Positions 3,060 to 61,000 of a stretch of DNA of 64,000 nucleotides are shown in pieces (position 1 is the first letter of the stretch; the number at the start of each line of letters is the position of its first letter). The translations under genes were made by a program, and so were the position numbers. This stretch comes from a virus. Below the pieces are notes generated by a model that ran no database searches, was not told the origin of the DNA, and was given only the letters and a program-made list of their open reading frames with translations. The stretch covers positions 1-64,000 of IMG/VR virus record IMGVR_UViG_3300042503_000209, one strand, 5' to 3'.

Positions 3060-3318
3060 AAAGAAGGTGAGGGTAGCAATAGCTATCGTGGGCAAGCTCT
3101 TGTCCAAACCAATCGGACTTAGGATACTGATCAACCATGAGCTGCTGTAGTTGATGACGACTACCGTGACGGGGGTAATGAAAGCAGAAGCTTACAGTGA
3201 TTAACTTCACGTAAGATAAGTAGACGTTAGTAATTATACAATACCGAGACTATCAGCATAGCTGTTTAGAAGTAGGAAACTCCAATCATAATCAGTACGT
3301 CAAGCTGATTGTTTTTAA
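3060..3318 (+). ncRNA. Putative structured noncoding RNA
   Basis: No plausible ORF lies here, yet the sequence holds a series of compact hairpins: 3072-3087 (GGTAGC/GCTATC), 3090-3105 (GGGCAA/TTGTCC), 3130-3155 (ATCAAC/GTTGAT), 3162-3177 (TACC/GGTA) and 3191-3215 (CTTAC-GTGA/TCAC-GTAAG with one bulged A). A terminator at 3290-3320 ends it. The density of stable stems is far above that of the other intergenic gaps. I infer a transcribed RNA of about 260 nt, or a long 3'/5' UTR. I could not place it in a known RNA family. Confidence 0.45.
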
Positions 3319-3320
3319 AT
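3290..3320 (+). terminator. Intrinsic terminator
   Basis: AATCAG (3290-3295) pairs with CTGATT (3305-3310) around a 9-nt loop and is followed directly by GTTTTTAAATTTT. It ends the structured region and precedes the gene at 3345. Confidence 0.65.
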
Positions 3321-3344
3321 TTTCATTCATAAACATAATCAATT

Positions 3345-3965
3345 ATGTCATTTAGAGATAGTAAATTCAACCACGCAGAAGATAATTTCCATTTAGCATT
3401 AGGAGTTACTTCTGAAATTAAAACTATATGCAGAGAACGTATATTCTTTGCATCACTTAGTAATGCTTTACAAGCAGATGAACTGTTTGATGATATGGAA
3501 GAAGCACCAAAAGAGTTTAAAACCGTAACAGGTGACTTACAAAGGTTAATATCTATGATTACAAATCCAATTGAGTATGATTATACTCTTCTTGTATTCA
3601 TGATGTACCAGCGTATGGCAAAAGAGGTGTATGTTCATTATAAAAATGCCAAAGAAGATCCAGTTGCTTCTCGTGAAGAGCAAATTAAAATGGAGATTAT
3701 TAAAGGTATAATGAAGCTTAAAGAAATGAAAGATCGTGAAGAATCTGGTGAAAGTAATACAGATGATGATGATGATAGTATTGAAGTATTAAGTAAAGAA
3801 AGTATTACAGAACGTATTAACTTGATTAAAAAGAGTGGATACAATTTTGATAAATATTTAAATCTTTTACGTAGTACAGATATTATTAGTTCACGTAATA
3901 AAAAGTCAGATTTTGATATAAGTGATCTTTTATCAGGATTATTTTCAAAAGATGATGATGACTAG
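3345..3965 (+). CDS. Unknown helical acidic protein, 206 aa
   Basis: The product is mostly alpha-helical. An N-terminal half rich in amphipathic helices (IKTICRERIFFASLSNALQADELFDDM, YDYTLLVFMMYQRMAKEVY) is followed by a charged coiled-coil-like stretch (IKMEIIKGIMKLKEMKDREESGE) and two acidic Asp runs, the second at the very C-terminus (KDDDD). An acidic C-terminal tail is also seen in SSB-like and scaffold-like proteins, but I see no defining motif. Stop codon TAG. Confidence 0.8.
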   Translation: MSFRDSKFNHAEDNFHLALGVTSEIKTICRERIFFASLSNALQADELFDDMEEAPKEFKTVTGDLQRLISMITNPIEYDYTLLVFMMYQRMAKEVYVHYKNAKEDPVASREEQIKMEIIKGIMKLKEMKDREESGESNTDDDDDSIEVLSKESITERINLIKKSGYNFDKYLNLLRSTDIISSRNKKSDFDISDLLSGLFSKDDDD

Positions 3966-4054: not shown

Positions 4055-4342
4055 ATGAAGTTTAATAATCCTCGTATACAAAAAGGTTTTGGTCAAGCTA
4101 CGAGTTTAGTAATGCGTGATCCTGAAATATCTTTACGAGACAAAGGTTTATATGCATATTTATGTACTTACGCTAATGCTACTAACAATGAATTAGTAGT
4201 AAGTGTACATAGAATGGCATCAGAATGTGGTATCACTACGTCAACTGTCAAACGTTCACTTGAATCTCTAGAAGAAAAAGGTGTAATAGCACGTATATAT
4301 CAAGGACCTAGAGTTACAAAGCTTACAGTTATATTAAAATAA
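4055..4342 (+). CDS. Winged helix-turn-helix protein (replication/transcription regulator type)
   Basis: The 95-aa product is a single winged-HTH domain. An N-terminal strand region (FGQATSLVMRDPEISLRDKGLYAYLCTYA) resembles the start of phage replication-initiator and DnaD-like HTH proteins. The recognition helix pattern follows (VSVHRMASECGITTSTVKRSLESLEEKGVIARI), with a wing at the C-terminus. It should bind DNA as a regulator or initiator accessory. It stands alone between a terminator and the structured RNA region, so it is a good candidate regulator of that region, though this is only proximity. Confidence 0.8.
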   Translation: MKFNNPRIQKGFGQATSLVMRDPEISLRDKGLYAYLCTYANATNNELVVSVHRMASECGITTSTVKRSLESLEEKGVIARIYQGPRVTKLTVILK

Positions 4343-4344
4343 TA

Positions 4345-4863
4345 TGGGTCTCATTATAATTTCACATAAGAAGTCTAGCTTGCAAAACTAGAATGTATTA
4401 TTGGGAGTTAGAGACCCACCCTTCTTTAAGGCAAGTGGGACCTGTGCACATATATTAGGTGTAAATACACGCTAGTATATGAATAAGTCCTTGTCCCCAC
4501 GCCATGTTATTGAGAGCTATGTGATTATATAAAGATAGTACTAGTCGCTTAAACTAGCCCGCTTGACATATATGATGCATAGTTCTCATACCTTATTAAC
4601 TGATTACAGTAACATCATATAAGTCGTATGTGGCTTGGCCCAGCATTGGTCTGCTGTAATAGTTAATTAATTAAAGTCTGATCCCAGGAGCTAAATAGCG
4701 TATTAACTAAATTAGTCAGGGCAGTATCAAGTGAGCGGTTCCGTCACTCAGTAGTACGACATGATGATAGAGCTCCGTCAAACGAACAGTGGTCATACCT
4801 AGTAACAGTCGATCAGAACAGCACTAGACCCATAAGAACTATGGAACCCTGGGATAGACTTTT
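4345..4863 (+). ncRNA. Cluster of tandem structured RNA modules
   Basis: This is a 520-nt gene-free stretch made of back-to-back modules, each closed by a long stem. A: 4345-4418, 8-bp TGGGTCTC/GAGACCCA, with two inner arms (TTAT/ATAA at 4354-4369 and CTAG/CTAG around 4377-4391). B: 4430-4503, GGC..GTGGGAC with GTCCCCACGCC, and an inner GTGT-AAAT-ACAC arm. C: 4512-4587, 10 bp plus 8 bp stem, apical CTAGT-(7)-ACTAG. D: 4595-4667, 14 bp with one bulged G. E: 4673-4862, 15 bp with a bulged G, enclosing GGAGCT/AGCTCC and smaller hairpins. Modules A-D are 73-76 nt, tRNA-like in size, but none has a T-loop consensus. E is followed by TTTTAATT, so transcription may end there. Family unknown. Confidence 0.55.
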
Positions 4864-4903
4864 AATTCTGTATTTATTAATAATTCCATATAAATTCATT
4901 TAA

Positions 4904-5638
4904 ATGAAAGATTCTAAAGTAGTAGGAAAAATCTTCCAAACAAAAAACTATGATCAGTTTAAGTATAGAGCTGATAATAGACCTGTGGACGCATCAAACG
5001 TACACAAATTGGTTAAAAGCTTTGAAGTAATGGGACAAAAAATTCCAATCAAAGTAGACTCTAGTATGAATGTACTAGACGGGCAACATCGTTTAAAAGC
5101 ATGTGTGCAGTTAAAAATTCCAGTAATTTTCATCATTGATGATGAAGATATGACAACATCAGAAATTGCACAACTTCAAGCTACTACTAAAAAGTGGACA
5201 TATGAAGACTATGCACATAGTTTTGCTAATGATGAAAATTTGGTAGATTACAGATTGTATAACAACTTCTGTAGTGTATATTCAGAGTTTCCACATAGCA
5301 CTGCTATTCTTATGTTAGGTAATCAGCGTACAGCTGGTGGTAACGCAGACCAAGTCTTTAAATCAGGTAAATTTAAGATTAAAAGTTTTGCTAAAGCTAA
5401 GCATATTGCTGAAACTTTAAGAAAGATGTCTATTTATTACAAAAACTACAATCGTAAAGGTTTTGTATCATCTATTATTGTGATGATGAACCATAAAGAT
5501 TATAGCGAAGAAAGACTATTTAGAAAGCTTCCAAAGCGTTGTAAAGAAATTCATGACTTCAGTAAAACAGAAGATTATTTGGATACTTTACAAGATATCT
5601 ATAACTGGAAAGAAACTAAGAAAGTCTATTTTCATTAA
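4904..5638 (+). CDS. ParB/Srx-fold nuclease-like protein
   Basis: The N-terminal 100 residues show the ParB-like pattern: a recognition strand, VHKLVKSFEVMGQKIPIKV, then VLDGQHRLKACVQLKIPVIFII, where G-Q-H-R is the diagnostic ParB/sulfiredoxin-fold box. The C-terminal 140 residues are helical and basic with no HTH that I can recognise. Stand-alone ParB-fold proteins in phages act as DNA-binding proteins, CTP-binding clamps or nucleases; which applies here cannot be told from sequence. It starts directly after the structured RNA cluster. Confidence 0.8.
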   Translation: MKDSKVVGKIFQTKNYDQFKYRADNRPVDASNVHKLVKSFEVMGQKIPIKVDSSMNVLDGQHRLKACVQLKIPVIFIIDDEDMTTSEIAQLQATTKKWTYEDYAHSFANDENLVDYRLYNNFCSVYSEFPHSTAILMLGNQRTAGGNADQVFKSGKFKIKSFAKAKHIAETLRKMSIYYKNYNRKGFVSSIIVMMNHKDYSEERLFRKLPKRCKEIHDFSKTEDYLDTLQDIYNWKETKKVYFH

Positions 5639-5639
5639 A

Positions 5640-5891
5640 AATATTACTAGATTGAAGTTTGGATGGTATAAACACCAATCGTCCACATATGTCCTCTTAG
5701 TATTGCACTGTAGAGAGCCATTGCTTAACTGGTCATCTAGTAGCAGTTGATGAAGTGCTAGGTCTGGAAGCTACTTATATATATCCTAGTAGCAAAAGCA
5801 GAATAATACAAAGGTAAATTTTTCCAGGTCTGAACCGTATATGTTAGTCAACGAACCAAAAGTGGTGGGAGTAAAATCTCACCACTTTTTT
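5640..5891 (+). ncRNA. Possible noncoding RNA ending in a strong terminator
   Basis: This gap of about 220 nt has no credible ORF but holds nested pairings: GGA-GGT (5661-5667) with ACC-TCC; GCACT (5705-5709) with AGTGC (5754-5758) enclosing AACTG/CAGTT; and TGCTAGG (5756-5762), which can alternatively pair with CCTAG or TAGCA at 5785-5794. The two uses of 5756-5762 are mutually exclusive. A perfect terminator closes the stretch. It is the weakest of the three structured regions and could also be a regulated 5' leader. Confidence 0.35.
5858..5891 (+). terminator. Strong intrinsic terminator
   Basis: AGTGGTGGGA (5861-5870) pairs with TCTCACCACT (5877-5886) across a 6-nt loop, with flanking A and T runs extending the stem. 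It overlaps what would be the 5' end of a longer frame from ATG 5841 and so decides the start of the next gene. Confidence 0.8.
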
Positions 5892-5903
5892 AAATTTAAA
5901 TCT

Positions 5904-6179
5904 ATGGATAAAGAATTGTTATTACTCTGTAGCTGTTACAGCCCAGAGCATCAAATTATTATACATTTAGATGAAGGTGGTGATTTATATCCACCAGAAG
6001 CATTTGTGCATGTACACTTAGTAAAACGATCCTTTTGGTATCGTGTTAAGTATGCAACAAAATATATATTTGGATTTAAATCCAGGTACGGTGCATGGGA
6101 CGAATTTATCCTAGATAAAACTCATGCAGAATCTCTTAGAAAAATAGCTAAACACTTAAATGATGAAACAGTATACTAA
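5904..6179 (+). CDS. Unknown protein, 91 aa
   Basis: An in-frame ATG at 5841 lies upstream of the terminator hairpin, so I choose ATG 5904 (MDKELLLLC), which follows the T-tract in an A/T-rich leader. The product has beta-type strands (QIIIHLDEGG) and a basic aromatic stretch (VKRSFWYRVKYATKYIFGF) that may touch membrane or nucleic acid. It overlaps the next gene by 20 nt. Not recognised. Confidence 0.7.
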   Translation: MDKELLLLCSCYSPEHQIIIHLDEGGDLYPPEAFVHVHLVKRSFWYRVKYATKYIFGFKSRYGAWDEFILDKTHAESLRKIAKHLNDETVY

Positions 6180-13452: not shown

Positions 13453-14604
13453 ATGTCAAAAGTAAAGTCACTTACAAAAAAAACTACACAGGAAGTTAGA
13501 ACTATTGATACATCACTTATCAATAAAGAAGAAGTATTTAAAATGCTAGCATTAGCAGAAGCTACAGGATTACCATGTCTTCTTGTAGGTCAACCGGGTG
13601 TAGCTAAAACCAAAACTGTTATTGACTATGCAAAAGCATGGTTGAATAAAGATGGTAAGATGACAGCAAAAGATTTTGCTGAGAAAATCTACATTTTAGA
13701 AACTGATGAAGGTACTAAAGCATCAGAAATCAAGGGTATGCCTGATTTAGGTAAGTTATTTACAGACAATCAGTATGAACTTAGCACACCTATTGCAGAT
13801 GCTGAGATCGTAATTATCAACGAGGTAGATAAAGCTAGTTCAGCTATACGTAACGCTATGTTAGGTGTAATGAACGAGAAGTTCTTATTTAACGGTAAAC
13901 ACAAGATACCATGTAAGTGGAAGTTATTTGTAGCTACATGTAATGAGATTCCTAAAGAAGAGAAGAACTCTCCATTCTGGGACCGTTTCATGTTAAAGCA
14001 TACAGTTAACCGTGTATCTGCAGGTGAGATGATTAAATACTACAATAAAGGTGGTCGTGACTACCGTGAGAGATTTAACATCGGTATTCCTAATAAGCAA
14101 GAGATTAACGAAGTAGAAATTCCAGTTACTAAGTTAGAAAAATATATGGAAGTAGGTTACAACCATAGCTCTGACCGTACTCTTACTTTCGTACCTACCT
14201 TATCTAAAGCAGTATCCTATATCTGGGATATCTCAGTAGACAAAGCTCTTGTAAAAACAGCTCAGATCATGATTGATCAAACTGCAGGTTCTGAACTACA
14301 GAATAAACTGATGTCACCAGAAGTTAAAGCAGTAATGAGTAAGGTGGAGATGTTACATAGCTACCAAACTAATGAGCAGCTAGAGCTAGCTATTGCAGAG
14401 ATTGAAGGTCTAGTTAATACTTATGCAACAAGAGGTATTATGGACTCTGGTCAAGTAAACGAGATTGAAATCTCTATGCAGTATATTCTACAGAATCATC
14501 CAGCACGTGTTGATAACACAAACAATGCTGAGTTAGAAGACATGATGTCTGAAGTAGAATCTATGCCTATAGAAGCTGTAATGGAGGCTTCAAACCCTTT
14601 TTAG
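13453..14604 (+). CDS. MoxR-type AAA+ ATPase
   Basis: A 383-aa AAA+ protein. Walker A is GQPGVAKT (46-53). The Walker B position reads IVIINEVDKA (119-128), so the usual Asp before the catalytic Glu is Asn. Sensor 1 is LFVATCNE, and an arginine-finger-type FWDRF follows. The order and lengths fit MoxR/CbbQ-like ATPases, which act with VWA-domain partners as chaperones that insert metals or remodel complexes. The partner is the next gene (14732). The Asn substitution could lower Mg/ATP turnover or be tolerated. Confidence 0.9.
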   Translation: MSKVKSLTKKTTQEVRTIDTSLINKEEVFKMLALAEATGLPCLLVGQPGVAKTKTVIDYAKAWLNKDGKMTAKDFAEKIYILETDEGTKASEIKGMPDLGKLFTDNQYELSTPIADAEIVIINEVDKASSAIRNAMLGVMNEKFLFNGKHKIPCKWKLFVATCNEIPKEEKNSPFWDRFMLKHTVNRVSAGEMIKYYNKGGRDYRERFNIGIPNKQEINEVEIPVTKLEKYMEVGYNHSSDRTLTFVPTLSKAVSYIWDISVDKALVKTAQIMIDQTAGSELQNKLMSPEVKAVMSKVEMLHSYQTNEQLELAIAEIEGLVNTYATRGIMDSGQVNEIEISMQYILQNHPARVDNTNNAELEDMMSEVESMPIEAVMEASNPF

Positions 14605-14608
14605 CACA

Positions 14609-14716
14609 GGGTTATAAGTATATAACAGAAAACATGTATTGGAAAAACAACCAAATATATGTTCTTAATAGTATTGGTGAGATGCAGCTTCTTTGTATCT
14701 CACCAATTTATAACCC
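14609..14716 (+). promoter_or_regulatory. Nested hairpin between the ATPase and VWA genes
   Basis: An outer stem GGGTTATAA (14609-14617)/TTATAACCC (14708-14716) encloses a perfect 11-bp inner hairpin, ATTGGTGAGAT (14673-14683)/ATCTCACCAAT (14697-14707). No good T-tract follows. It may cause partial termination or stabilise the upstream mRNA to set the ATPase:VWA ratio. A 28-codon ORF inside (14634-14720) is probably chance. Confidence 0.5.
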
Positions 14717-14731
14717 GTAAACTTTAACTAA

Positions 14732-16228
14732 ATGGCTAGTACTAAACAATATAAGAATGTATATACCATTCTTGAGAAAGTAAAAAAAGGTGAGATTCAA
14801 TCTTACTACAATGACGATGATGATGGTTTATTTGGTAAGATTAACTTCTATAAAAAAGCTGATCTTATCAAGCCATACATGCATTACATAGACGAGAGTA
14901 GAGTAGATACTATAATAAATGCTTATCTTGACAAATCTGAAAATGTTCAAGATGCTTTTCGTAAATTATCTGGTTCTACTAAATTACCAGATGATAAAAA
15001 ACCTGACTTTGATAGCTTTTATAAAAAAGTTAGAGATAACTATAGAAAGTTTCCTAAACATCTATCTAAAGACATTCATAAACTTTTCTATCATAAAATG
15101 GATAAGCTTGAATTTGAAGATAGAGATGATAAAAACTACACTAAGTTCAAGCTTTTAGAAAAAGCTAATAATCCTGTAGCTAAAATTATGACAGAAGGTA
15201 GCAATCTTAAGTCTACAATCTTTGCTAGAAATATTATGGCATATTTTGCACTTAGATCTACTATGATGGAATATATTGATCCAGATACTGCTCAAGATTT
15301 TATGAACGGTATGAGTGGTGACGGTGATCCTGATTCTGCTGATCAAGCAATGGATAAGATGTTCAATGATAAAGCATCTAAAAATATGTTTGATAAAGCT
15401 GTACAGGAAGCTACTGACATGTGTAAAGATATGGATCAAGCTATTGATAAAGACACTCAAGAAAAAATGTTTGAAGATGTCAATAAAAATGGTGGAAGAC
15501 AAGCAGGTAATCTAAGTCCAGATTATATTAGAACAGTTGTACAAGAGCTTTCTAAGCTTAGACTTTCTATGGGTAGCCTTAAAGATAAGATTAAGAAACT
15601 TATGGATAAGTCTGCATCATACTTTAGTGCTAAGAAAGAAACTACATATGAAGATCTATTCAATTCAGATAATCTAGCTGGTCTTAATGACTATATAGAA
15701 CTGCATCCGAAGCTACGTAAAATATTTGCTGAAGACATTGTTATCAAAGATGAAAAGTCTATTGGTAAGATTGATATCTATATAGATATATCAGGATCAA
15801 TGTCTGACGGATGTGGTGTTAAAGATGCTAATGGACGTACAATTACTAAACTTGATTTCTGTAAATCATTTACAGTGAAGCTTGGTGAGATGGGTATGCT
15901 TAACGATGTATACTTATTTAACACTAGTGTAACTAAGTTTAAGAATGATCCAATATCATTAGCTATGCTTGATACATCTGGTGGTACTACTATTGATAAA
16001 GCAGTAGAAAGTATTGAGAGAAGAGGTATTAACTCATTAGTTATTACAGATGCTGAAGATCGTTGTAGAATTTACTCAGATAAAGCATTCTTTATAGGTG
16101 TAAACGGTGCAAGATTTACTCACTTTAGTGATGATGTTATCAGTGAATACTCTGATAAAAACCAAGTTGTAGTATTTGATGGCACTAAAATATTTAGTGT
16201 TGATAAGAAAGGTAGGACGGTATACTAA
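14732..16228 (+). CDS. VWA-domain (CoxE/ViaA-like) partner of MoxR ATPase
   Basis: A 498-aa protein. Residues 1-340 are helical and Lys/Asp-rich, and the C-terminal 150 residues form a von Willebrand factor A domain with a complete MIDAS: DISGSMS (Asp352, Ser354, Ser356), a Thr in DTSGGTTIDK, and an Asp in LVITDAED. The MIDAS binds a divalent metal and a ligand carboxylate. With the MoxR ATPase upstream this forms a RavA-ViaA/CbbQO-like pair. The substrate in the phage cycle is unknown. Its stop overlaps the convergent gene at 16225 by 4 nt. Confidence 0.88.
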   Translation: MASTKQYKNVYTILEKVKKGEIQSYYNDDDDGLFGKINFYKKADLIKPYMHYIDESRVDTIINAYLDKSENVQDAFRKLSGSTKLPDDKKPDFDSFYKKVRDNYRKFPKHLSKDIHKLFYHKMDKLEFEDRDDKNYTKFKLLEKANNPVAKIMTEGSNLKSTIFARNIMAYFALRSTMMEYIDPDTAQDFMNGMSGDGDPDSADQAMDKMFNDKASKNMFDKAVQEATDMCKDMDQAIDKDTQEKMFEDVNKNGGRQAGNLSPDYIRTVVQELSKLRLSMGSLKDKIKKLMDKSASYFSAKKETTYEDLFNSDNLAGLNDYIELHPKLRKIFAEDIVIKDEKSIGKIDIYIDISGSMSDGCGVKDANGRTITKLDFCKSFTVKLGEMGMLNDVYLFNTSVTKFKNDPISLAMLDTSGGTTIDKAVESIERRGINSLVITDAEDRCRIYSDKAFFIGVNGARFTHFSDDVISEYSDKNQVVVFDGTKIFSVDKKGRTVY

Positions 16229-24189: not shown

Positions 24190-24424
24190 CCGTTTTCTTT
24201 TTTAGTGAGAACTTATCCCCGGTGTCTCCAATAAGAGCTGCAATACAGATGTACATAACAGCATCTACTAAAGCATCAGATGGTTTAATATCTCCATGAC
24301 TAAAGCTATTAGCTGTTAAAGTGATACACAAAAATAAAGCACACATAAAACCTACTACTGGTTTAATAGAAGTAGATCCACGCTCATCTTTAAATAAGTC
24401 TAACACCCATTGCTTAAAAGTCAT
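24182..24424 (-). CDS. Holin-like two-helix protein, 80 aa
   Basis: Two membrane segments (about 24-42, VVGFMCALFLCITLTANSF, and 51-66, ALVDAVMYICIAALIG) with a charged N-terminus and a Lys-rich C-terminal tail make a typical small holin layout. It overlaps both neighbours by 8-11 nt. It is one of the better holin candidates to release the GH19 endolysin. Confidence 0.7.
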   Translation of the reverse strand: MTFKQWVLDLFKDERGSTSIKPVVGFMCALFLCITLTANSFSHGDIKPSDALVDAVMYICIAALIGDTGDKFSLKKKTDE

Positions 24425-24710
24425 ACTTAATTGTTTTTAGTTTAAAAGCTTTATCATCAGGTAGCACTGCTACAACTGTTTGATACTCAGGTAGTTGTTT
24501 TGTTGGTGCTATAGGAGCACTTGTAGATTTAAATAACTGACGTTCTAAGTTATCAATCCTAGTCTTGTCTATATTAGACTGAGCCATTAGCAACTTAACA
24601 TCAGCTTTAATTTCATTTACATCATTCCAGATTAACAAACTAACAAGTGACACTAAAGATGGGAATATCCACACCTTAAAAGCAGCTATAGATGGATTTT
24701 CTCTAGTCAT
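24414..24710 (-). CDS. Membrane protein with short coiled coil, 98 aa
   Basis: One helix (about 12-27, VWIFPSLVSLVSLLIW) is followed by a heptad-like stretch (VNEIKADVKLLMAQSNIDKT) and a Pro/Val-rich tail. This organisation is common in phage holin-accessory proteins. It is coupled by an 11-nt overlap to the holin-like gene downstream. Confidence 0.7.
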   Translation of the reverse strand: MTRENPSIAAFKVWIFPSLVSLVSLLIWNDVNEIKADVKLLMAQSNIDKTRIDNLERQLFKSTSAPIAPTKQLPEYQTVVAVLPDDKAFKLKTIKYDF

Positions 24711-49044: not shown

Positions 49045-52000
49045 TTATTCTCCTTTACAACCAGCGTCATCTTCTTTTTTACGTTCCTGTAGTTCACTTC
49101 TTTTAGCAGCTAGAAGCTTCTGTAAGTTCTTCTTAGCTTCTTCTGGGTCTATGTCAGTTGGTACAGGATTGGTAAAGTTAGGCATTTCTCCCTCAGATTC
49201 ATCAGTAGCTTTAAAAGTATTTTTCATAGCTTTTGGTGAAACAGGCTGCTCTTGACGAGTCTCTTTTAGAACACGCAATAGCTCAGCTGGTTCAGTAATC
49301 TCAGTGTCATACTTAACATCTTTACCGTTTTCTTTTTTATAGAAGGTAAGTTTATTACCTACTATCTGGAAGGTAATTCCCCAATCTTCTTGCAGATCTC
49401 TAGCTTCAGTACTAAATCTTAAAGGATCAAAGTTTCCGATAATATTATCTAGTTCAATTTCTGCTTTAGCTAAAGCTGCTTCAGAAAGATTAAACTTATT
49501 ATTATTAGAAGCTTTTCTATTTCTAAGTACCAAGTTAGTAGGCATCTCACCTGTAAGTCCACCAACCTTCCATTGTTTTCTAGAACCAGTAGGCTCAAAT
49601 TTCTCATATACAGCTGTGTTGCTTAGTGCTATAGTATCACCTACATTTTTAATAAATGACCCAACACCTTCTATAGGAGTAGATTGAGTTACTACTTCTT
49701 CTAATCTCTTAAGCTCAGCGTTTAAGTATTCCCAAGTTCTTGGAGCTTTTTCAGCAAGCTTAGCTAAACCTACACCAATTGGAGGCACAGTTAACTTGTT
49801 ATACTTACCAGTGTTCCATACTGCTATAATAGCATCTATGTCTTGAGTAATTATACGTGCATTTTCTTCAAAATCAGCATCAGATTTGAAAGCAGAATCA
49901 TCCATGTTAGGAGCTTTCTTAGTAGAAATACCCATAGCATTAGGCTCACCTCTCATCTCTTTAGCTTGCCCACCTAAACCTTTTCTTGTATCATTATCAC
50001 CAAATACATATAGTGTACCTGGATTTTTCTGAAGATCTTCTCTTTTAAGAATCTTTGTAGTTCTTGAAAAAGCTGTAGCAGTGCTTACCTTCTTAGCTAC
50101 ACTTCTAAGTTTATAATATGTAGCTTTTTCATTTACACCTTTTTCACCTGTAAGTATCTTAACTGTATAAGGTAGTTCAATATAGTATCTATTGTTACCT
50201 TGTTCATCAGGACGATTAGTAAGTTTAAAACCATTAGCTTTTAAAACTTCTTTATTATAGTTTAACTTATCTAAATCCTTTTGCTCAAACTTACCTTTTT
50301 CAAGTACTTCAGTATAAAATTCATTACCAAACTCATCAATCAACAACATGAGTTCAGGTTTACGAACTCCACCAAACAAGTCAATAGCTAGTATAGTTTC
50401 ATCTTCAGACTGCATTATAACTTCAGGTACATATCCTTTAGGTTTATTTTTTTCAGCCTGTGCATTTACTTTCTTACCAGCAAATACTCTTGTTATATTG
50501 AATGTATTATTAATGTTAGTAGTGTACAAAGAAGTAAACTCATTAAACATTTCTGGAGCTGTAGAACCAAATATTTCTTTGTACTTTTCAGTGTTACCAA
50601 CTAAAGAGTCTTCCTTAAGAAGTTGATGAGCTGCCCCTGTAGAATCTAACAACTCTTTAAACATTGCAGGTGGAATAAACTTAATAAAACTACCACTCTT
50701 AAACTGAGCACCATCTTTAACTATAAGATAGTTAAATAAATTGTAAGCTAAAGATCTAGTTTTTGGATTACTATATATCTCTAAGAAGCTATCTTCAATA
50801 CGATTTTGTTCGTGCTGCCCAAGCTTAGCCCATGTATTAGACTCTACAGTGTTAATACCACCTCTTGATTTAGCATTAAAGTATTCTTGACCTGAGTTAA
50901 CATCATATAGTTTTACAGGAACAATGTTTAAGAATTTATTAGCAAAGTAGTTTTTAGGAAGTTGTTGTCTGATAGATTTTACAGTATCAATAATATCCAT
51001 AAACTGATCTCCTCTAGCTACTGCTTCTGCATCATAGATCATTGAATTATCTAAACCGGCTAGCTTTGCACCTTTACCGTTTACTTTTAGATACTGCATG
51101 TAAGCTTTAATACCTAAATAAGAAATGATATCACGCTTTAGTGTAACGTTAAAGGTTTCTGCTTCTTTAGAATTAACTCTTAAATTTTTAAGAATAGTTT
51201 CTTTAAATCTCTGGAAGATATATGTCTTTTCCATAAAGATACTTTTCTGAAGATCTTGAATCTGATTCTTAATTCTTAAATAGTTAGCCGTAATATTATG
51301 ATGAGGTTTAGAAGCATCTTTACCTGTAAGCACTTGACGTAAATCAAATGGTAATTTACTTTCAGAGAATGTAGAGTCATCCATATTTAAACCAAGCATC
51401 TCTTCTTTCTCTTCAATAGCATCAATAGCTTCATTACTTGTACCTAAACCTTTAGATAACTTAAGTACTTGAGCTACAGCAGAATAGTAAGATGTTTGAT
51501 TATAGAAATTTAAGAATGAACTAAATATTGCAACATTAGCTTCTGGGTTAGAACCAGCAGACTTAATATTGTTTTCCAAAAGTTCTGTTGTAATTTCAGG
51601 TAAAGTAGAATCTTTTACTAATTCATTAGAAAGTTCTTCTAAAAGTTCCTCACCAACCTTAGCTTTTACTAAATCTTGTTCTTGAGGTGTTTTAATCTTC
51701 TTAGAAGCTACAGCGATACGCTTATAAAACTCACGAACAGAAGGTTGTAAGTTAAACATAAGTGCTGTTTCTAAAGGTACACCAAGTGCAACCATATTAG
51801 ATACTACACCTACAGCATTAATATTCAATCCAAGACGTGCAGCCAAACGTTCTTTGGCGTTATCCGTCATAGCTGATACTATAGCAGAAATGTGATAGAA
51901 TATACGCTCACCTGTGTATCCTTCAACCTCACTTACTGCACCACCATCACCAATTTCTGTACGTTTTTGGAAAGCTTTGTTATACTCATAACTATTAAAC

Positions 52001-55000
52001 TTATGACCATCTATAGTTAATACATACAATTCTTCTCCTTTACCGTTTGTTTCTCTAACTCTAGTTAGTTTACCATAACTATTCATAATGGCATAAACTA
52101 GCATTGAGTTTACAGCTGGTCCAATATTACGAGCACCTTCTTTATTATTTTTGAAAGCTTTGTATTGACCGATCATAGAGTCAACATCAGATCCAGTTTC
52201 TACTAACACATCTCTTAGTATTGGGAATCTTTCAATAAAGCTATTAACAATATCTATAAGTGGTTGTACCTCAGCTACTTGGAATGCAGAAGCAACTTTT
52301 CCTTCTGTAGACTTAGTAACTCCATCATTGTTTTGAAGCTTAATCTTAGCTTCAAGAATACGGTTGTTAAGTACACCATTGTTAAGTTCACCATATTGTT
52401 CTACAGCTTTAGCATATTCATCTGCATTACTAGGTAATCCTAATTCTTTTAAAGCACTCTCAATCATCATTGAGTCTAGAGATCTACTAAATAAGTCTTT
52501 AGCTAGATCTTCAAAGCTTTGATAAACACCGCCCTCTTCATCACTATAAGTTTCTTCATTCACAGCTTCAGCTCTAAGTTGAGCAAGCTTTGTTTTAAAA
52601 GTCTTATTGCTTGACTGCAAGTACATTACATACTCAGTAAACTTACCGTCTTTAGTCTTAGCTGTACCATAAGGTATACGTTCTCCATCTTTACGATAGA
52701 AGTCCATAATTTGCATGTACACCTTATCAATATCAAAGTCAGCTCCAGATATTTCAATAAGCTCGTGAGGAAACACTGCTGTAGATCCGTAGAAAGCAGG
52801 TAAGAAATCAACCAACTTACTGGTTACAAATGAGTGCTTATCTTGTGAAGGAATACGTACTGCAAAAGATTTTAAAGCTGCTTCTGAAATAGATCCATCT
52901 TCATTATATAAGTTCATGTCTTCTCTAAAGTGAGGAGGCATCATATACTCTGTAAAGTAACCAGTAATATTACCTTGTTCATCAAACTCTGGAACGTTAT
53001 GTCTTAGATCATCTATGTAGATATCACCCACTTTAAGACCATCAAACTCACGATCTAGATTATTATTATAACGTTTAGCATCTTTAATTTGAGCTAATAA
53101 AGCTTTGTCTTTTTCATACTGGCGTCTAGTAATAACTTCCCAGCTTAAAGGTTGCCCGTTCTCATCTAATCTTGTTACACGTTTAGCAACCTTCATACCG
53201 TAGTTAGAAGCTAACGCTAAAGAGTGTCCTGGAGTTTTTTCACTCATAACACCTTTAGAAAAGTAAGCTAAGAATAACTGAGTAAACTTATCTAAAGTGA
53301 TAGGATGGTTAAGATCATACTTAGGTACATATTCACCAGTCTGCTCATTCTTAATAGGAGTAAAGAACTCAATAAGTTGTGAGTCAGCTCCTGTAGCTTT
53401 AAGAGTTTCAACTTGTTTATTTAAAAACTTACCAAGCTTAGGAGTAATCTGAGATTGTTTAAGTGACTTCTTAAGTTCTTTAAATGCACCTTCAATATCA
53501 AACATCTCATCACGAGCCGCAAAGTAGTTATTCTTAACACGTTGTTCAGTATCAGATAAATAGTTATCAATTACTTGACCAAGAGTCATCTCTTCACCCT
53601 GGAAATTAACTATAAGATCTCTTGACTGTTCTGCAATAATCAACTGCTTAGCTTGAGTAGGATCAGTAATTAATAACTTATTAGAAGGGTTTTCTAACTG
53701 AAGTCTCCAGAAGTTATTATCATGTTCTACAAAGTTCTCATCTGAAATAGAATTAGGGTCAGCAGCAATATTAGTCTTATATCCTTTAGAAGCAGACTTA
53801 GGTATAGCAAATGTAATAGTTTCATTTGCTGACTCATATGCCTCAAGCTTTTCTCTTATTGTATGAAGCTCTTCATATCCTGGTCTAGCTACCCAAGTAT
53901 TACCTTCTTCAACAGAAGTAAGTTGTTTACTTAATAGAATACCTGAAGTCTTAACATACTTCTTACCATCGTTATACACAAGCTTAATAGAGTTAGTCTG
54001 AGCATTATAGCTAACAGAACCTCCTCTTGTACGAGATATTCCATTTTTATCTTTATATATCTCTCCAAAGATATCTTTTGTAGATACACTTTCTCCTCTT
54101 TCAATTTTATCTAGTAAGTCAGCTTGAGCTTGATTAAGTTTACCAAGTCCAAACAATGTATAGCGGAAAGATTTTACAGACATCCACATTTGAGCATCTG
54201 CTTGTTCTTTATTCTTACCAGCATACTTACCTCTATATTGAGGATCATTAATTGTAACTACATGTGACTTTGTATTAGCATGATTAATGCCTAAGTTAGA
54301 TGCTGTAACAATACTAGAAATAGATGCTCCAGAACCATTCAAACCTTTATTACGCTTAACCTCATCAATACCACCATCGTTTTTATAGTTCTCAGCAGCA
54401 TCTCCAATAAACAATTGTCTAGCTGATAATGTATTAATAAAGTTGTTGATAAGTACCTGAGCTATATTATGTTCAGGTGCATCTACAACCATATTAAGCA
54501 TCTTATTTCTATCCTTATCAGTTTTATTATCAGATTTAAAACCTCTAAAAATATAATTAGTAAGAAGTCTATTCTCTAGTTTATCTTCTTTGGTTGCTCC
54601 AATTACGTTTTGTTCTTTTAAAACGGTAATCATTTCATCAAGTTTACCGCCATCCGCTAACCAATACTTTTCAATTTCATTTAGAATTTGGTCATTGTAT
54701 TGTGATATATCTTCAAAGTTTTTAGCAGCATCTTCTAAAGTAGATAATAAACTACCAAGCATATTACCAGTCTTAATAAACTTAAGACCTCTTTCTTCAC
54801 CATTATGGTATCCTTCTATAATACCATTTAAATAATTACCACTATTAATTTCAGTGGTCACTCTAGCTATTCTGTCAAACTCACGTTTAACTTCATTGAG
54901 CAACATATCCTTAGCTTCTTTAGTAAGAACTATCTTACCACTCTTATATTCTACAGCTCTGATTACAGGTAAGTTTAACATATCACCTGTGTTAGAAGCT

Positions 55001-58000
55001 TCCAATACTCCTAATAATACTGAAGAAGTCATAAACTGCTTAGTAGGTTGTCCTTCCTGACCAGGAATAACATGCTTTTTATTATTAGCATATAGATCAA
55101 ACAAACTAATTAAGAATTCACGGTCAGACATTGAGCCATAAGTAATACCTTCATTCTGGTTTACGTTAAGTCTCTTATCTTCTACTAAAGAACCATCTTC
55201 ATTTTTAGTAAGGCTAGATGATTTAATACCATCTATACGTGCAATCTTAAGACCGTCAGCAATATAGTTAAAGAACGGATTGTTCAATAAGTAGTTAGTA
55301 GTTAAGAACTTATCTTTTTTAAGTTCTTGACGGAACTCTTCACTCTGCAATTGTGCAGCTCTTACTAAGTTGTATGTTGGTAACTGATGTGAAAACACTA
55401 ATTCACCTTCTGCATTCTTATAAGAAGTAGAAGATACTTGCTCATCAAACACAGCATTACCAGCAGCTATCTTAGTCAAACGACCAATAGCAGCATCTAC
55501 ATCATCCTCTACATCTTCACTTTGTTCTTCAAATTCTTCCTCAGATATAACCTTTGGTTCTTCTGCAGCAGTAAGTGTAGCCACTTGCTCTTCAGATTCT
55601 GCAAGTTTGTCTGGGTCAATATTTGTACCAAAAGGATTCTTACCACTTCTAATAGAAGATGCAATCTCTCTAGCATCTGACTCAGTCATCACCTCTACAC
55701 CTTCAAAAGCTCTAAGTATTCTTAAGTCATTAGCTGTTAACTTTTTAGTATCAACAGTAGATAAATAACTATACTTAACAAACAATGGAGATAATGATAT
55801 ACCTAGTTCATCTTTTAGAGATAATACTATATTATCAATTTCAGTAGCTAGTACACTTTCCTTATAAGTGTTACCTTTCTTTAAAAGGGTAGCAAGCTTG
55901 TCTAATGCAGCTGTTTTAGATTTAATAAATCTAGAAAGACTTTCAGAATCTTTTGATACATTTTCATACTGATCAACAAAAAGTCTTAGGTATGCATTAT
56001 ACCAAATAGAAAACTGGTTTCTAGCAGCACCTTTACGATTAGCTTCACTAACTCTAGTTTCCTTTTTACTAATATCTTTATTAATAAAGTAGTAATCTAC
56101 TGAGAATTGGTTAAAACCTTTTATAACAGCTTGGAATAAATTAGCTTGATTCTTATTACCAATATCTATGAAGTTACCATCTTCGTCATATTGAAGATCG
56201 ACATCATTAGAAAACTTAGTCCAGAACTTTCTAGCTTCTGGATTATTCTCAGCAAATATTCTTAAACGCTCAAGCATCTGAAACTGATCTGTAGAACCAG
56301 CTACCGCTTTAAGAATACCATTATAAAGAACGTTTGCGTTTACAGCTTCAATTAGTACTTCTTCAGTAGGAGAACCATCCTCAGATATAAATCTAGTATT
56401 ACCAAATTCATCTGTAGTTTCTTCTACAATAGTAGATATATATTGACGTAGTTCTTTAGATAAAGAACCGTAACCACCAATGCTATAAGTTTCTTTCCAA
56501 TTATCAGTAGTCACTCTATCTCCATACTCATCTACTTTATCATCAAAGTCATTAGATTCAACCTCTTCCTGATAACCCATGATACGGGTATGTTCAATAA
56601 CAGCAACTTTAAGAACATTAAAAAAATCTTTATTTGAAAATACAGCAAATAATTGATCTAATTTTTCTATAGCTTTGCGTAAAGCTACTGGATCGTCTCC
56701 GTACCTATCAATAAACTCATCTGAATCATAATAAGGATTATTATTTTTATCATATAAGTTAGCATAATCTTCAAAAACAGTATCTAAAACATCTTCACTA
56801 TGCATTGTTAAACCTGCTTCAGACATACGTCTATGATATACTGCAGCAATAGTAGAAGCTAATATATCACCTTCTTGTTGACTTAAGTAAATAGGAATAG
56901 ATTCTCTTTCACCATCTTCATTATCTATTACAGTAGTTCCAATTTGAATAGCTTTTAAAGCTGTTTGTGTAATAGCAATATTAGGACCAGTAGTAAATCT
57001 ATTCTTTGCTAAAGAAGCATTTCTATAATTACCTTTCTCAATAGACTGAAATAAATCATCTAAAGGAGAAGCTTTAAGACGCTTAAAGAAGTTCTTAACG
57101 AAATCTAATAATCTTCTAAAAAAACTTTTATTTTCTGCAGATGTTGGTGTCTTAACGTCAGACTTCCATGCATCAAACTTATCAGCTAAGTATTCTTCAT
57201 ATACACGCTCTTCTAATTGCTCTTCTGTAAGCTTAGAGTAAAACTCAGGTTTAGTAGCTAGCAACTCTTGTTTAAGCTTAGCAATACTCTTACCTTGTTG
57301 ACGAAGTTCTTGTTTAGCTATATTTAAGTACTTATCAATCTGTTGATCAGTAAGTAACATACGGAATACAGCATGAAACGCTTCATGGTATTTAAACGGT
57401 GTATCTTTACCTACAGCAATCTTACCTTCTAGTTTATTATTTAACTCATTCATATGAGTGTAGAACATACCAACGGTAACACCCTCCACTTTCATTTGAC
57501 GAGCAATATTATTTAACTCTTCTACAGAAATAAACTCTGGAAGATTTTGTTGTGCCCATTTTTTAAATGCATTAATATGTACAACGTCTTGACCAGTAAG
57601 TCTATCTGAAACTTTAAGAGCAGCACTATTATTAATCTTAGCAATTTCTTGATTAATTGCAGCTACACGTGGTTCAGCATCATAATTATGCCTCATTACT
57701 TCACGTCTTGTTTTTCCAGATTTTTTTAAAGCATCACCAATTTCTCTAATTATAGCATATCTCTCATCTTTAAGATCTTGTAGCTGATCTTGAATACTCT
57801 TAGTCTGTTGCTTAGCTTTACGTTCTTCCTCTTCTTTACGTTTTTTTTCTTCCTGCTCTGCTATACGCTTAGCAATCATTTCAGCTTGTGCAGTATCTAT
57901 ATCAGAAGGTAGATTAATACCAGCTAGTTCTTCATCAGTAGGTTCCTCTTGTTGAGGTACTGGTCTCATTTCTGAAATAACAACATTGCTAGATGGAGAA

Positions 58001-61000
58001 ATTTGTTGTTTCTTAGGGTATATAAAAATACCTTCATTCTTTACAATACTTGGATTAACACCAGAAATCATCTGACGAGCTTCATCAACTGAAGCATTTT
58101 CAGAAAAAGTATTTTTAAAACTGTTTTTAGTTAATCTTACATTACCAATCTTATATGGAAATTTAGCATCATGATCTACAATAGCACGATTAATTCTTTC
58201 TATAAAGTCAGTGCTGTCCTTTATGTTTAAAGGTTTTTTACCATCAGATTCAGACTCTTGTAATACTATAATAGATCTCTGAGGATTCTTACTACCTTTT
58301 GTAAATGTTGCAAACTCTACTCTAACATTACCTGTTGGACTAAGAGCAATGTTCACTCTATAACCTCTTCTACCAGGTACAGCTACATAGATAGTTTGAT
58401 TAATCTCATTATTAATATCATCCGCTGCTGAAGTATCAACCGCAGCAAAATAAGTTTTATCTGTTTTTGGATCAGTCTTTTCTTCTAGATTGTTTTCTTT
58501 AATTTCTTTAGACTTAGCATTGATTCTTTGTACTAAATCATTAAAGCTTTCTGTAGAATAAACACTTGGTTGTAATTCTATAAACTTAATACTACCGTTA
58601 GGTAATTCTACTACAGCTACATAACGACCATAGTTTCTAAGCTTATCTTCACCGCCTTCAAATCTAGCAGCTTCAATTCTTTTTTCTAGTTCTTCAGTAT
58701 TAAGAGACTCTGTAATAGGAGCATTGGGAACATCTTCATACATTCCGTTTCCTAAATACTTAGTTCTACGATCATAGATATAAGTAGAACCACCTATTGT
58801 ACTGTAATCTAAATCATCTAAAGTAACTCTTGTATCACCTTCTTCTGCAAAATCATATTCACCAGCCGATGGTACAACATTAAATAAGCCATTAACCTCC
58901 TCATTGTTTAAAGTAACTTCGGTAGCACCTCCTAACAACTGGTTAGTCATTGCACTATATAACTTCATACCAGAAGCATAGCTTTCTTTAAACTTTCTAA
59001 ACTCCTCATTAACATCTTTCTTTTGAGGATCAAAAATTTGTATAAACTGGTCTTTAGTAATATTACTTAAAGCAATAGGTTTACCAGCATTATCTAAATA
59101 TGTGTATCTATTATAGTATGTAACAAAACCAATAGTCTCACCACCATATACAATTTCAATCTTGTATGGTTCTGGGTTCTGCTGTAGATGTCTATTTTGA
59201 TCTGTACCTTCACTACCAACTAAAGTTGTATTACCAAGAGTTTGATTCTTAGTAATCTTAATAGTAACACCAGACTGAAAAGCATCTTTAGACGTAGTAT
59301 AAATAAGTTGTCTTAATCTAGCATTAGCTTGCTCTTGAGTTTCATCCTCATTTCTTTTAGCATAAATTCTATTAAGCTCATTAGTTCTTTTTAGTCTAAA
59401 TGCGTCAGGATTTTCTGGTTGTAACGCAGCTTCAAAAGCACTTTCTAGTTTATAACCAGCAAGACTTTCAATAGTAAGAGTAGCTGCAGAACCCTGCATA
59501 GGCTGAATAGTAATCTTAGGTTTACCTTGTATTAGTTTAGGCTTAGTCTTTGTAATTACTCTATACTTTCTTCCTTTAGCATCTACAAGAATATCACCAA
59601 ACTTTAATGTTTGACCATCAAATTGATACTCAGCATACTCGTCTTTATTAAGCTCTGCCAATGCTTCAAAATAAGTTGTAACTTCTTCTAAAGATTCATA
59701 TGCTTTAGCAGCTTCCCATAATGGGAACTTCTTAGCATCTAACGTTAGCTCTGTTACAGGAGCCCCTCTTCTATTTAAAATATAATAGAACTTAGAACCT
59801 TCGTATTCTTCTTCTATAAGATAAATACCGTTTTTCTTATTTATTACTTTAGCACCTTCAGGAAGACCATCTGGTACATCTTCAGTCTGTTCAGTTGGAG
59901 CTAATGGATCTTTTCTTTCTACCGGAGGCTTACCTTCAAACTCATTTTTAATTTCCTCTAAATGCTCTTCTAAAAGTTTTTTACCAGTAGTGTCAATAGA
60001 TTCCATCAATCTTTGGTGCACCCTTACAAACTGAATAGGGTTAGCCATAATGTTATAAGCATCTACATACTCTTTAACATCATTATTAAGATCAATATAT
60101 TCAGTAAGATTCTTATAGATTTCTTGAATGTCATCCGCTTTTATAGTAGTATCAATACCTGCCTCTTTGTTCTTAGCATTAACATACTTCTCAAAACTTT
60201 TAGCTGCCTTGTTAAACTTACGTTTCTGACCAGGCTCCATACTCTTAAGATCCTGATGGTGTTGTAACCACTCTTCTAAAGATTTTAATTGTTCTTTCTT
60301 AGATTTAAGAAGCTCTCTAGTTGCAGTATCCTTTTTAGGATTAGCAGCTAGTGCTTCAATCTCAGCTTTAAGAATATCAATTTCTTTCTGTGTGTTTTGA
60401 ATAACACCTAGATTACGGAACGCTGTACCCACAGAAGCACCAATTTGTGGTGTAGCTGCCATTTCAGTTTGTAACTGAACAGCACGCTGAGCTGCTTTAT
60501 GAGCTTTGTAATCATTAGTAGCCATTATTTCAATAGCATCATCTAACGCACGCTTAGCCATTAAAGCAGTCTTACGCTCTGGTGTACCCTCTTTGTACAT
60601 ATCAATTAGTACAGAGTCACCATATTTATCTTTAAGAGCTTTCCAATTCTTATGGAATGTCTCTACATCATTTGCAATATTATTAAAAAAGTCTTTGGTT
60701 GATTTAATGTTGTCTGCAGTTTTGTCTAAGCCAAAAGCTTGTTTAAACTCTTCGTCATTAAATGTCTCACCATACCCACGTAATGTGTCAAGAACTGCTC
60801 CTGCCATATCTGTTTTGATAGCAGAAGAAATCATTTTAGCAAAACCTGAGTTCTTATTGTTGTTAAAAACATATTGGTCTCTGTTAGCAACAGCTTCCTC
60901 CATGTTCTTAGCAATCTTATTTTGTACTTTAATATTAGCTATATGCTCTGGTAAAAACTTATTAGGGTTTTCATAGAAAGCATTAACCTCTCTTACAGCT

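Follow-up and report, generated by a model that had tools for sequence, protein, structure and literature searches.

A putative island of small structured RNA genes in crAss-like phages

Overall organization of the island

The ORF-free gap at 4343–4903 of the crAss-like phage sequence analysed here is filled by five closed RNA modules (A–E), with A/T-rich spacers of 5–11 nt between them. Together with a further RNA (F) beyond the next gene, they probably constitute a phage RNA-gene island, in which separate structured RNAs would be co-transcribed, act in trans and carry a common docking handle. This reading is drawn from sequence comparison among relatives.

The window (the whole stretch analysed, 64,000 nt) is part of a 108,133-base IMG/VR virus record of a crAss-like phage found in environmental samples. 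One of the encoded proteins, 1718 aa long, matches those associated with RNA polymerase in crAss-like phages, e.g., Cellulophaga phi14:2, and a DNA polymerase, a ribonucleotide reductase, a DnaB-like helicase and a primase are also encoded. Adjoining the 1718-aa protein is a 4545-aa ORF (49045–62682, minus strand), which recalls the giant proteins of crAss-like phages. At 13453–16228, a MoxR-type AAA ATPase is followed by a 498-aa ORF with no Pfam match, possibly a vWA-type partner. The array is flanked by a 95-aa rep/DnaD-like winged-helix ORF (4055–4342, plus strand; PHROG matches), which lies upstream of the island in most relatives and served as an anchor to find them, and by a 244-aa ParB-like ORF between E and F (4904–5638, plus strand; PHROG 12305). 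The ParB-like ORF is not constant at this site, and the gene 3′ of E differs among relatives. A comparison of the whole rep protein with the genome contigs gave a single short match that looks unrelated.

The five consecutive closed modules proposed in the initial annotation are present, almost exactly where it had placed them and with minor corrections of their borders. No ORF of at least 60 aa occurs in 4343–4903. This region folds at −147.1 kcal/mol, compared with −127.1 ± 7.1 kcal/mol for dinucleotide shuffles (z = −2.83; none of 100 shuffles was as good). The z scores of the single modules are −4.1 (A), −3.3 (B), −4.9 (C), −1.9 (D) and −2.2 (E); A, B and C lie far below their shuffles in energy, and D and E moderately. 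For D and E the energy by itself is modest, and the case for these two modules rests on covariation, which was found in relatives for both; B and F also have covarying pairs. The three observations that the initial annotation had named as contrary to its reading (a folding energy within the shuffled range, a lack of covariation in relatives, and a conserved ORF) were not made.

The array matches no catalogued family by test, as the initial annotation had supposed of its layout, and in kind it belongs with the phage structured RNAs. An Rfam 15 cmscan of the window at the gathering score, with GOLLD, ROOL and other families included, yielded no match, and lax scans of 4300–4950 and 5630–5910 gave only chance-level matches. 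ARAGORN found no tRNA gene in the window, where there is also no match to RF00005, and the tmRNA model RF00023 matches neither the window nor the whole record to which it belongs. When 16 related loci were scanned with Rfam, tRNA and tmRNA genes were the only matches, and no module was among them. A DNA-level search of named phages with the gap and with a divergent E gave no match. No convincing antisense match of the modules to the rest of the window was found; the longest by raw length is an AT-rich word of 15 nt, found for B. A literature search, with most subscription journals outside its reach, returned no paper on noncoding RNAs of the crAss-related group or on the array.

Module E, the core RNA

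Module E (4673–4862, plus strand; 190 nt) is supported by 34 homologues, covariation and a covariance model, R1. Its closing helix P1 pairs 4676–4688 with 4848–4859 and has a bulged G at 4680; a second helix, P2, and a loop-E-like CGUA/GAA element lie inside. Across the 34 distinct E sequences, 99.8% of the cells in the 12-bp P1 are paired and 34/34 have the G, values that are partly selected because most of these sequences were picked by a helix finder demanding a G-bulged helix. Two-sided changes occur in 10 of the 12 pairs. The number of cells with such changes is 68, compared with 14.8 ± 3.2 in shuffles (0/500 as high), and when the partners are slid against each other, pairing falls to 23–49%. 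P1 contains 29 G·U cells and no A·C cells, which indicates selection on a plus-strand RNA rather than on a DNA hairpin or on the minus strand.

Less biased tests of E are provided by P2 and by model matches outside the training set. P2 was not used to select sequences. In 11 divergent E sequences, chosen by matching the spacing of conserved letters, all six P2 pairs have two-sided changes and 92.4% of the cells are paired. The E matches in L026, L036 and L050 (L-numbers designate related loci), which are outside the training set, keep the bulged G and have new compensated pairs. The sequence [N]GUA opposite GAA, a loop-E/sarcin-ricin signature, follows P2 in 27 of the 34 E sequences, compared with a mean of 0.7 in interior shuffles. 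The interior of E thus carries a loop-E-like sequence signature, whose three-dimensional form is a prediction. The minimum free energy z scores of the E homologues average only −1.1.

Of 40 related records, 36 have a single strong match to R1, and four further relatives have a complete copy and one has a copy truncated at the contig end. E is thus nearly universal and single-copy in the relatives. In 33 records of unrelated phages, R1 has no match at E ≤ 0.01, and nothing convincing came from running it on four named phages, crAss-like or related (best E-value 0.06). Within the window, a weak match to the E model at 24386–24528 (minus strand; E-value 0.03) is probably due to chance. In L026 and L036, E is sited elsewhere, between other genes, with P1 (AUUU/AAAU and ACAC/GUGU), P2 and [N]GUA/GAA present. 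Because the structure is kept away from rep in these genomes, E appears to be a separate gene rather than the leader of rep or of ParB.

An insert of about 40 nt in E (AGUAGUACGACAUGAUGAUAGAGCUCCGUCAAACGAAC) is nearly invariant where it is present and elsewhere replaced wholesale. Its GAGCUC palindrome is GGGCCC in L061. Mimicry of rRNA by this insert was considered and rejected, since it shares no word longer than 8 nt with Escherichia coli rRNA, a length that shuffles also reach.

Modules A, B, C, D and G

Module A (4345–4418, plus strand; 74 nt, z −4.1) has an 8-bp closing stem and a central hairpin loop CUUGCAAAA of the CYYGCRAAA type, and its homologues occur in L017, L020, L028 and L042. 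Module B (4430–4503, plus strand; 74 nt, z −3.3) is closed by the helix GGC-AA-GUGGGAC/GUCCCCAC-GCC. From its nine homologues, RNAalifold predicts 18 pairs, six of which have two-sided changes. Module C (4511–4588, plus strand; z −4.9) has a 12+8 bp closing helix with a bulged G, AUGU[G]AUUAUAUA / UAUAUGAU GCAU, and a 7-nt loop, CGCUUAA; homologues with the bulged G are found in L017, L020 and L021. The size of 73–76 nt originally given for A–D holds for A, B and D but not for C, which is 78 nt long.

Module D (4595–4667, plus strand; 73 nt) is closed by the helix AUUAACU[G]AUUACAG / CUGUAAUAGUUAAU and is supported by covariation and the model R2, with which it was found in 19 of 40 related records. 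In 18 homologues, 98.6% of the cells are paired and 8 of the 12 pairs have two-sided changes (0/500 shuffles as good).

Hairpins with the CYYGCRAAA loop recur on differing stems in A, in G (a module of relatives), in E of L036, in L061 and in a tRNA-like RNA of L006, with only one stray occurrence in 794 kb of sequence searched. When compared with a 7-nt anticodon-type loop, the CYYGCRAAA and CUGCUAA loops recur with changing stems, the flanking pair is C·A, and the loop varies. CYYGCRAAA was rejected as a canonical T-loop because its closing pair is C·A and L061 lacks the U. The tRNA-like RNA of L006 (about 5487–5585) has an acceptor stem, a T-arm (AGGTTCGATACCT) and an overlong hairpin loop, CCUGCAAAA, and is not called by ARAGORN.

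A bulge shared by the closing helices

The single bulged G noted by the initial annotation in the closing stems of D and E is real, and C also has one, which had been overlooked. The closing helices of four modules with mutually unlike interiors, C, D, E and G, have a Y-[G]-A/U bulge in common. In all gaps, we looked for long closing helices whose 5′ strand has a single additional base. This base is G in 56 cases, A in 4, U in 4 and C in 3, whereas ten dinucleotide-shuffled sets pooled gave 19, 32, 30 and 29, respectively (about two G expected per set), a comparison that is not a p-value because the homologous gaps are not independent. In 55 of the 56 cases the bulge reads Y[G]A and its A pairs with U. 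The pairs beside the bulge vary (CU/AG, UU/AA, AC/GU, AU/AU), and G, A and U are constant. A G·U pair with a bulged A is an alternative, near-degenerate register, and the invariant is therefore best stated as GA opposite U with one unpaired purine. A conserved asymmetric purine bulge in otherwise unlike RNAs would most simply represent a shared binding or processing site. In L006, a further bulged-G module (GGCU[G]AUGUUAUUAA / UUAAUAACAUAGCC) lies at about 5373–5485, between F and the tmRNA.

RNA F and the terminator beyond ParB

After the ParB-like gene, a conserved structured RNA of about 200 nt, F, is predicted at 5643–5855 (plus strand) from covarying helices in a seven-sequence alignment; its minimum free energy z score is only −0.3. 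F lies directly 3′ of E in L015, L016, L019 and L021–L023. The possibility that F is a relict tmRNA was rejected, because it has no Rfam support and F and a tmRNA coexist in L006. The T's that had been noted after the last stem of the array are present but amount only to TTTT, and the intrinsic-terminator-like site lies farther on, at 5858–5889, past ParB. This hairpin (5858–5893 in full, plus strand; z −6.6) closes the island and is the sole such site.

Presence and order of the modules in relatives

About 45 distinct contigs were reached by searching with the ParB-like protein, with an exact E motif and with the rep-like protein. In about 40 crAss-like phage contigs from IMG/VR, the homologous gap holds independent modules, not one RNA. 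The order is fixed; E is nearly always there and D is common, and A, B, C and G come and go. The window has A-B-C-D-E, followed by ParB and F. The arrangement is A-B-G-C-D-E in L017 and L020 (with one additional module in L017), B-G-C-D-E-F in L021, B-G-D-E-F in L016, B-D-E in L001, L003 and L005, and D-E-F in L015 and L019. A tRNA precedes D-E-F in L022 and L023. The shorter forms are A-G-D-E (L028), G-D-E (L027), A-E (L042) and E only, directly after rep (L063). More distant relatives have other closed modules of 65–90 nt, then E, and often then a tRNA and a tmRNA. In L026, two different closed modules with long stems (79 and 87 nt) occupy the island position at 3288–3480, and E follows about 1.2 kb farther on.

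Genuine tRNAs, detected by ARAGORN and Rfam, lie in or near the island of relatives and are interleaved with the modules. The RF00023 tmRNA is present in 17 of 35 related records and, in the cases checked, lies 0.1–4.5 kb from E on the same strand. A role in translation does not follow from this co-location, and the window record itself has no tmRNA. The flanking proteins have diverged to 30–60% identity among phages that keep E once per genome, and E is probably important for infection.

Proposed function and alternative interpretations

The separate folding units, the single losses, the interleaved tRNAs and the stand-alone E indicate an array of distinct RNA genes. One plus-strand transcript would hold several independently folded small RNAs (A–E, and F after ParB), with E as the single-copy core RNA of the group and the other modules as optional cassettes. 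By analogy with tRNA arrays, we infer that this common transcript is cut; the modules would be excised from the precursor like tRNAs and then act in trans. The common bulge may be the docking site of one phage or host protein that processes, protects or assembles the RNAs, and the exchangeable interiors might give each RNA its own target. Given the tRNA and tmRNA company, translation or ribosome rescue during infection is the first place to look for the process that they could serve. A more far-reaching proposal, which we put forward only tentatively, is that of a new phage RNA system with varied small-RNA cassettes, one protein-docking bulge, interiors exchangeable for different targets and an obligatory core E, carried with tRNA and tmRNA so as to remodel translation in the host or to overcome a tRNA-directed defence.

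Among the readings offered by the initial annotation, a noncoding structured array stands and an array of small RNAs fits best. The modules might instead be domains of one large, GOLLD/ROOL-like RNA that works uncut. The fixed order on the same strand, the short spacers and the overall fold (z −2.8) are in keeping with this idea, and a contact between domains could account for the common bulge. However, modules are lost singly, A, B, C and G are gained and lost whole, E stands alone after rep in L063, and L042 has only A and E. ParB separates E from F in the window, and tRNA and tmRNA genes lie inside the island in relatives, all of which makes a single large RNA unlikely. Mimics of tRNAs or anticodon arms, which would act as decoys and keep the host's anticodon nucleases or tRNA-sensing defences busy, are suggested by the tRNA size of A–D, by the genuine tRNAs that replace A–C in L022 and L023, and by the CYYGCRAAA and CUGCUAA loops, which resemble anticodon loops (Y32 U33 GCN A37 A38) in A, C, G, E of L036 and the tRNA-like RNA of L006. 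These loops keep the decoy idea alive, but its basis is limited and we consider it improbable. The loops differ in sequence (CCGCAAA, CGCUUAA), the universal module E does not resemble a tRNA, and, as the initial annotation had stated of the T-loop and D-loop of A–D, the modules have no T-arm or D-arm; none is matched by ARAGORN or a tRNA model in the window.

We also give little credence to cis-acting elements, in which the closing helices would serve the operon as RNase III-type processing sites or as mRNA-stability sites and have no separate function. A helix of 15–20 bp with a single bulge would be suitable for such a role, many E stems continue into a U-tract, and a protein-coding gene (ParB) is downstream in some genomes. 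However, the downstream gene differs among relatives, E is also found between other genes, at a distance from rep, and the interiors (AGUAGUACGACAUGAUGAUAGAGCUCCGUCAAACGAAC and the loop-E-like core) show more conservation than a cleavage stem would need. Assembly by RNA only, in which the RNAs would be joined into a complex by kissing of their palindromic loops, GAGCUC for E and UUGCAA for both A and G, has precedents in ROOL and GOLLD (PMC12286853). The GAGCUC to GGGCCC replacement in L061 is a compensated change within the palindrome, and AAAUUU stands at nearly the same place in L001 and L003. This explanation is nevertheless very improbable, as the element is absent from many E variants and the A loops of L020, L042 and L061 are not palindromes of 6 nt. 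An array of separate, trans-acting RNAs is thus the reading that we prefer.

Comparison with known systems

The tRNA cluster of phage T4 contains two small stable non-tRNA RNAs, C and D, of unknown function, which are co-transcribed with the tRNAs. The array resembles them in concept only, as small non-tRNA RNAs alongside phage tRNAs, and differs in having up to six or seven modules, several with a shared handle, and often a tmRNA in relatives. Type III toxin-antitoxin ToxI arrays are likewise tandem small structured RNAs from one transcript, but the modules here are mutually unlike, not near-identical pseudoknot repeats. The neighbours are rep-like and ParB-like in the PHROG comparison, in which no toxin gene of the ToxI type was recognised beside the array. 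The modules are close to tRNA in size and share the island with genuine tRNA and tmRNA genes in relatives, whereas they themselves score as neither.

GOLLD and ROOL are phage-encoded, extensively structured RNAs of unknown function that often lie near tRNA islands; they are single large RNAs, with many GOLLD members longer than 800 nt (PMC12286853). The array shares with them the phage-encoded structure and the vicinity of tRNA islands. In contrast, it consists of separate modules of 60–220 nt and of several kinds, with a common bulge and no Rfam match. If the handle is one docking site, the cassette array would be more than a variant of phage structured RNAs. At least one strongly supported RNA family (E), with the satellites A, B, C, D, G and F, is added for crAss-related viruses. 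The shared bulge offers a concrete handle for finding a protein partner, and the tRNA and tmRNA company makes the role of phage 'ornate' RNAs directly testable.

Other elements in the window

An inverted-repeat element at 823–899 of the window also occurs in L042 (9042–9055, minus strand). GAGAGCTCATTTTTGA is present in both, and the second arm is GGGGCTCAAATATGA in the window and GGAGCTCATTTATAAGCTC in L042; the exact 14-mer is in no other fetched locus. A gene-poor region at 200–262 contains the inverted repeat GGTAGTACACGCAGCT ... AGCTGTGTGTACGTTACC, which is possibly a further RNA element.
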